Shown here: piece after piece, positions 34,828 through 35,732 of the stretch
How positions within the stretch are numbered: position 1 is the stretch's first letter
Layout of the letters: the number at the start of each line of letters is the position of its first letter
Assembly (NCBI GenBank): GCA_001797465.1
Contig: MGPQ01000019.1
Span: 1 to 64,000 of the forward strand
Direction of reading: 5' to 3'
Length of the DNA: 64,000 nucleotides
Source: Deltaproteobacteria bacterium GWB2_55_19
Lineage (GTDB): Bacteria; Desulfobacterota; GWC2-55-46
Notes under the pieces: generated by a model
Database searches by the model: none
What the model was told of the DNA's origin: nothing
The model's input: the letters and a program-made list of their open reading frames with translations, nothing else
Made by a program: the position numbers and the translations under genes

Positions 34828-35463
34828 TTAGCCCTTCCTAAACCTCTTCATCCTTACGACCGCAAAACCGGCCAAGCCGCTGCCGAGGAGCAACAATGTA
34901 GACGGCTCCGGTACCGATGAAGATGAAACAGTGTTAAAGGCCAGGTTGTCGATGCCTATAACGTCATCCATGTAGCCCCCTGATCCGTTAGGGGACCCGC
35001 CGCCTGTCCAACTGAAGACAAAGGACGCTATGCCCGCAGTGTTAATCGTAAGGCTGTAAGGCGTACTCGCGTTGGAGAACGATGTCGATGCAAGCAGGTT
35101 ACTGCTGGAGTCGTAGACATCCAGGTACGATGTGGTGTTCGCATAGTCGGCATATATAATCTGGGCAGTTATATAATCCGTCGTGCCGGTAAAATAGCCT
35201 GACATAGCCACATTCCCCACGCCATTATAAAGTCCGCTCTTCTCGCCGGTAGCCCATGTCGAGGAGCCGTTTTGAGAACCGTAATCCGTTGTGTAGTAAG
35301 CATTTGTAAAAACTACCCCTGAGCCAGAGTAGTCGCTTCCCACGGCTGTGCCGGATGCACCGCCCTCAAAGTCGACAGTCACAGCGCCTACGTACGCCGG
35401 CAACCCCGCAGACAGCAGTGTTGCAAGAAAAAGGGAGCCTATTTTCAGAGATTTACGCCTCAT
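34828..35463 (-). CDS. PEP-CTERM sorting-domain exported protein
   Basis: 211 aa. Signal peptide about 1-27 (FLATLLSAGLPAYVGA). The mature part is low in charge, rich in Ser/Thr/Gly/Tyr and beta-like (VDFEGGASGTAVGSDYSGSG, TAQIIYADYANTTSYLDVYD). The C terminus has the full sorting signal: VPEPSTLLLLGSGLAGF, then basic MKRFRKG. Exosortase cleaves such proteins and moves them to the cell surface or EPS matrix. SD AAAGGAGG. A sigma-54 -24/-12 promoter precedes it, and two upstream direct repeats are candidate activator sites. No exosortase or EPS gene is in the window. Confidence 0.93.
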   Translation of the reverse strand: MRRKSLKIGSLFLATLLSAGLPAYVGAVTVDFEGGASGTAVGSDYSGSGVVFTNAYYTTDYGSQNGSSTWATGEKSGLYNGVGNVAMSGYFTGTTDYITAQIIYADYANTTSYLDVYDSSSNLLASTSFSNASTPYSLTINTAGIASFVFSWTGGGSPNGSGGYMDDVIGIDNLAFNTVSSSSVPEPSTLLLLGSGLAGFAVVRMKRFRKG

Positions 35464-35509: not shown

Positions 35510-35526
35510 ATGCAAAAAAAATGCCA
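35510..35526 (-). promoter_or_regulatory. Sigma-54 (RpoN) -24/-12 promoter of the PEP-CTERM gene
   Basis: Minus strand TGGCATTTTTTTTGCAT: GG and GC are exactly 12 nt apart, as the RpoN consensus TGGCAC-N5-TTGC requires. The implied start is near 35501, giving a leader of about 38 nt with SD AAAGGAGG. Confidence 0.8.
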
Positions 35527-35621
35527 TGCATCCGCATAAAAGCATCATAGTTTGTAACTATTTATTTTTATAGGCTTATTTTTCTCAGCAGGCCTTACTG
35601 AGGAATGCCGATTGGATCCCA

Positions 35622-35732
35622 AGTGTAAAAAAAGTTGATAGCTGGTTAGCCCCTTTTGCCAGTTAAAACTGCTAACTCACTGATTTTACAGCGTTTACTT
35701 TAGTTCCACTTGTGTAAAAAATGTGGACAGCT
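35622..35732. promoter_or_regulatory. Two direct-repeat boxes, candidate enhancer-binding-protein sites
   Basis: The boxes at 35622-35643 and 35711-35732 share TGTAAAAAAnGTnGAnAGC (18 of 21 positions identical). They are 96-206 bp upstream of the -24 element, the usual distance for a sigma-54 activator. PEP-CTERM genes in other species are controlled by the PrsK/PrsR system with RpoN; assigning these boxes to a PrsR homologue is inference. Confidence 0.55.

Follow-up and report, generated by a model that had tools for sequence, protein, structure and literature searches.

The 64,000-nucleotide stretch of DNA analysed here (the window) carries a gene for a PEP-CTERM surface protein at 34828-35463 on the minus strand, and the question arises of how this gene is controlled. 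A sequence-only reading of the locus had proposed enhancer-dependent sigma-54 control by PrsR, exerted through two boxes upstream of a -24/-12 element. With rpoN, prsR, prsK, prsT and an exosortase gene all present in the genome and the boxes recurring, this proposal is the best-backed reading, and, judged from sequence, the region upstream of the gene is very probably a sigma-54 promoter on which PrsR acts from afar.

Promoter and upstream boxes of the PEP-CTERM gene

The open reading frame has a GGAGG ribosome site and encodes 211 aa, comprising a signal peptide, a Ser/Gly/Thr-rich body and the tail VPEPSTLLLLGSGLAGFAVVRMKRFRKG. Its product scored 31-35 bits against PF07589 in a Pfam profile search (cut-off, 20.7). 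The -24/-12 element was confirmed as TGGCATTTTTTTTGCA at 35526-35511 on the minus strand, with the ATG of the gene 47 nt downstream. This site deviates from the general consensus at two weak positions only, is the sole exact TGGCA-N6-TTGCA match in a scan of the window, and is kept in the orthologous promoters of two congeners. It thus combines TGGCA and TTGC elements at the standard spacing with the presence of rpoN in the genome, as expected of a sigma-54 promoter. When up to one mismatch was allowed, the window contained 2 matches to the -24/-12 pattern against 1.6 expected by chance; taken alone, the site is not beyond chance.

Two predicted PrsR boxes lie upstream on the minus strand, a proximal one (TATCAACTTTTTTTACA, 35624-35640) and a distal one (TGTCCACATTTTTTACA, 35713-35729), whose ends are 97 and 186 nt upstream of TGGCA. 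In the pattern by which they were originally described (35624-35642 and 35713-35731), both are exact, and there is no other exact match in the 2.63 Mb genome. Allowing up to three mismatches gave 36 genome matches as compared to 15 with the reversed pattern, and eight of the 36 sit just upstream of PEP-CTERM genes. Since the two boxes are the only exact matches and the looser ones are concentrated at PEP-CTERM promoters, the boxes, unlike the lone -24/-12 site, are beyond chance. The unit shared between promoters is a 17-mer, TGTyCA-N5-TTTACA in gene sense, of which TTTACA is the conserved end, and the AGC flank of the earlier pattern is not common to other promoters. The paired boxes are real, but the earlier reading had taken them from the other strand and given them two bases more than the shared unit has.

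Alignment of the orthologous promoters of the window gene from three species showed conservation of the two boxes, of the -24/-12 element and of two blocks resembling IHF sites, with 17/17 positions of the proximal box and 15/17 of the distal box invariant. In 30 genomes of the family, the combined box and sigma-54 pattern gave 68 matches, while the reversed pattern gave 2; 40 of the 68 are on the same strand as a PEP-CTERM motif and at most 1.1 kb upstream of it. It could be argued that the A-rich boxes are mere AT-rich intergenic DNA beside a chance -24/-12 match, since one to two such matches per window are expected at up to one mismatch. This would leave the family counts, the invariance of the proximal box and the recurrence of the arrangement at PEP-CTERM genes genome-wide without explanation, and we consider it extremely improbable.

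Regulators and probable regulon in the genome

Direct reading of upstream DNA, together with a TTTACA scan, yielded seven promoters for the eight PEP-CTERM genes of the genome (window, C1, C5, C12, two divergent promoters on C17, and C19:94k), each with a -24/-12 site and upstream 17-mers ending in TTTACA. The third PEP-CTERM gene of C17 lies directly behind another, and that of C12 lies behind a small lipoprotein-like gene. The short gaps suggest that both pairs are co-transcribed, in which case the seven promoters would serve all eight genes. Two box copies per promoter are the rule in this genome, with spacers of 53-101 nt, and one box is off consensus at each of C1, C12 and C19:94k. The proposed genome scan for boxes with -24/-12 sites near other PEP-CTERM genes thus revealed the expected recurrence, and the window gene, described as an orphan, is one by position, whereas its regulation puts it in a group of eight.

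The small lipoprotein-like gene (C12:328352-328759; L046:2353-2760) has no Pfam match; a PrsR-type promoter precedes it and a 748-aa PEP-CTERM gene follows. Small proteins resembling its product are also encoded behind PrsR-type promoters of other genera (L154 and L156), so that the gene may be a conserved member of this regulon.

The search for prsK, prsR and exosortase homologues found all of them. A single locus on contig C17 encodes PrsR, PrsK, PrsT and an XrtW-type exosortase, along with three PEP-CTERM genes and glycan genes. The cut-offs of the profiles TIGR02915 (PrsR), TIGR02916, TIGR02917 and NF038142 were exceeded by the PrsR/PrsK/PrsT/exosortase set, with scores of 580 bits for PrsR (cut-off, 502.6), 382 for PrsK (300), 415 for PrsT (312) and 585 for XrtW (425). 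PrsR carries a GAFTGA loop, rpoN is present in a single copy (414 bits against 277), and both ihfA and ihfB are in the genome. Among named records, the closest one carrying a similar PrsR (87%) is a MAG from groundwater with the label Deltaproteobacteria. Because prsR and rpoN are present and the boxes recur at other PEP-CTERM promoters, neither of the two observations named beforehand as speaking against the proposal, a genome lacking prsR or rpoN and boxes peculiar to this promoter, was made.

A profile search revealed about 14 NtrC-like regulators in the genome, PrsR included, and one of the at least 13 others might bind the boxes in its place. PrsR is, however, the only one to pass the TIGR02915 cut-off, and its gene adjoins boxed PEP-CTERM promoters, being ca. 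2.7 kb from one and ca. 5.4 kb from a second. Among family genomes at least 90% complete, 13 of the 14 with PrsR have PEP-CTERM genes, whereas four of the six without PrsR have none, and the motif and PrsR have a common phylogenetic profile in Haft et al. 2006 (PMC1569441). Binding by another NtrC-family activator is therefore improbable in our view, and PrsR remains the preferred activator.

The arrangement has a precedent. Haft et al. 2006 (PMC1569441) described a 17-nt motif 1 that ends in TTTACA, is sometimes repeated and is followed by a sigma-54 motif 2; the two motifs precede 99 of 167 proteobacterial PEP-CTERM genes, and PrsR, PrsK and PrsT are the matching proteins. The window promoter thus belongs to a kind already described in 2006, the comparison with motif 1 being made through its text description, and the boxes are not the new motif they had been taken for. 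Shared features are the repeated motif (TATCAACTTTTTTTACA and TGTCCACATTTTTTACA) upstream of -24 (GG) and -12 (GC), the position of -24/-12 between motif 1 and the start codon, a PEP-CTERM gene that forms a unit of its own behind a long intergenic region, and the presence of PrsR/PrsK/PrsT and an exosortase in the genome. In contrast to the published class, two copies are the rule in this genome, and the window spacer of 97 nt exceeds by 5 nt the published maximum of 92 nt (62.8 ± 10.6, range 32-92 nt, given descriptively), a slight excess that counts against the PrsR reading. The pepA promoter of Aquincola tertiaricarbonis RN12 is similar in preceding a PEP-CTERM gene with a -24/-12 site in a genome with PrsK/PrsR; this site was mapped, RpoN dependence was demonstrated by primer extension and RT-PCR, and an enhancer was predicted upstream (PMC9850573). 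RN12 is of another lineage, however, and pepA adjoins prsT, whereas the window gene is far from the prs locus. We found no PrsR footprint in the literature.

IHF-like sites and spacing

The IHF consensus is WATCAANNNNTTR, and sigma-54 promoters of the NtrC/NifA type have paired activator sites with an IHF site between the enhancer and -24/-12. The window promoter resembles these in its paired sites and, less clearly, in an IHF-like site between enhancer and -24/-12, and differs in its activator, PrsR, and in its box sequence. The IHF-like site (AAATAAATAGTTA, 35555-35567, minus strand) is weak, with 7/9 consensus letters, and lies 28 bp upstream of -24 in a position class common to other promoters; its AGTTACA is invariant in the three-species alignment. 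Alignment and inspection against the consensus revealed a further IHF-like site between the boxes (AATCAGTGAGTTA, 35673-35685, minus strand) with 8/9 letters, and its counterpart in G007 has 9/9.

Many promoters carry WATCAANNNNTTR between the proximal box and -24. When similar promoters were grouped to give 30 independent ones, 12 had an IHF-like match of at least 8/9 letters, as compared to 2.2 expected from shuffles. All 12 sites fall into three classes of distance from -24, ca. 4-8, 15-19 and 25-29 bp (0.5 expected), and these classes had been noticed before being counted. The same positions were seen in a mostly separate phylum-wide set, counted without the repeats of G045, G119 and G201, without rows of the family that had entered the first count and without a few rows that looked like near-duplicates or chance matches, and again at prsR loci, some of them from the same genomes. 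The box-to-promoter spacers fall into clusters of ca. 50-54, 72-77, 82-85 and 92-101 nt, for which Rayleigh testing at 10.5-11 bp returned p values between roughly 1e-4 and 1e-5. The period came from a scan; random spacings put through that scan as a null gave 0/20,000. The spacings, near 53, 73, 84 and 96 bp, look as if they were helically phased. As patterns in sequence, the IHF-like site and the spacing classes both extend over the whole family.

Conceivably, PrsR needs no IHF for its action at the boxes, and the IHF-like element is some other AT-rich feature, such as a UP-like tract or the site of another protein. The promoter-proximal match in the window is just 7/9 and several promoters of genus g13 have no forward match, so we regard this as a serious but doubtful alternative; the 12 phase-locked sites among 30 independent promoters, the recurrence of their positions phylum-wide and the presence of ihfA and ihfB argue against it. 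We lean towards an involvement of IHF, in which the PrsR promoters of the phylum would have an undescribed fixed geometry of boxes, an IHF site ca. 6, 17 or 28 bp above -24, and whole-turn distances of ca. 53, 73, 84 or 96 bp, suggesting an IHF-bent enhancer that depends on the face of the helix. The text of Haft et al. 2006 (PMC1569441) mentions neither an IHF-like site nor helical spacing classes. We found no paper on IHF at PEP-CTERM promoters or on the spacing rule, and subscription papers may differ in this respect.

Relatives and proposed mechanism

In the phylum, 106 of 395 genomes had a match to the pattern and the reversed control was nearly empty. Loci with prsR-like genes labelled Delta, Desulfuromonadales or Nitrospirae gave 8 box plus sigma-54 sites against 0 in the reversed control. 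Close PrsR-like regulators (about 50-57% identity) are common in Verrucomicrobia MAGs (L077-L135, Verrucomicrobia and others). A search of the prsR-like loci of Verrucomicrobia found no box plus sigma-54 site, and no TTTTACA plus sigma-54 site was found near these regulators, so their target motif probably differs. This absence is in line with the limit to Proteobacteria given by Haft.

Matches of other kinds were also observed. Some family matches without a PEP-CTERM gene precede, as seen by eye, PspB-like and GAF-like genes, and are possibly chance matches or other sigma-54 promoters. In genus g13 and its relatives, conserved box plus sigma-54 sites (L199 and L204, with similar promoters in L164, L166 and L196) precede a non-PEP-CTERM protein family ending in ...GDAYIGKVQKAMESIG. 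G045, G119 and G201 contain a repeat, TTTTACAAACCTGCGATTTG...CATACGGCTC, with many matches to the pattern; it has the look of a dispersed element and not that of a promoter.

We envisage the following activation of the window promoter. Upon a signal, the membrane kinase PrsK would phosphorylate PrsR, whose dimers would bind the two 17-bp boxes, TGTyCA-N5-TTTACA, and then oligomerise. A DNA loop, probably aided by an IHF bend, would bring PrsR to the promoter, where its ATPase and GAFTGA loop would open the RpoN-polymerase waiting at -24/-12. The XrtW-type exosortase would then sort the PEP-CTERM product to the surface of the cell or into the matrix. Observed directly are the sites, which recur at the promoters serving all eight PEP-CTERM genes and are conserved in congeners, and the genes for every protein named. 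For the exosortase/PEP-CTERM system of an uncultivated groundwater lineage, this gives a regulon that is precise and can be tested, and the sharpened box, the IHF-like site and the spacing rule should ease the finding of PrsR targets elsewhere, also where the PEP-CTERM gene is the second of an operon.
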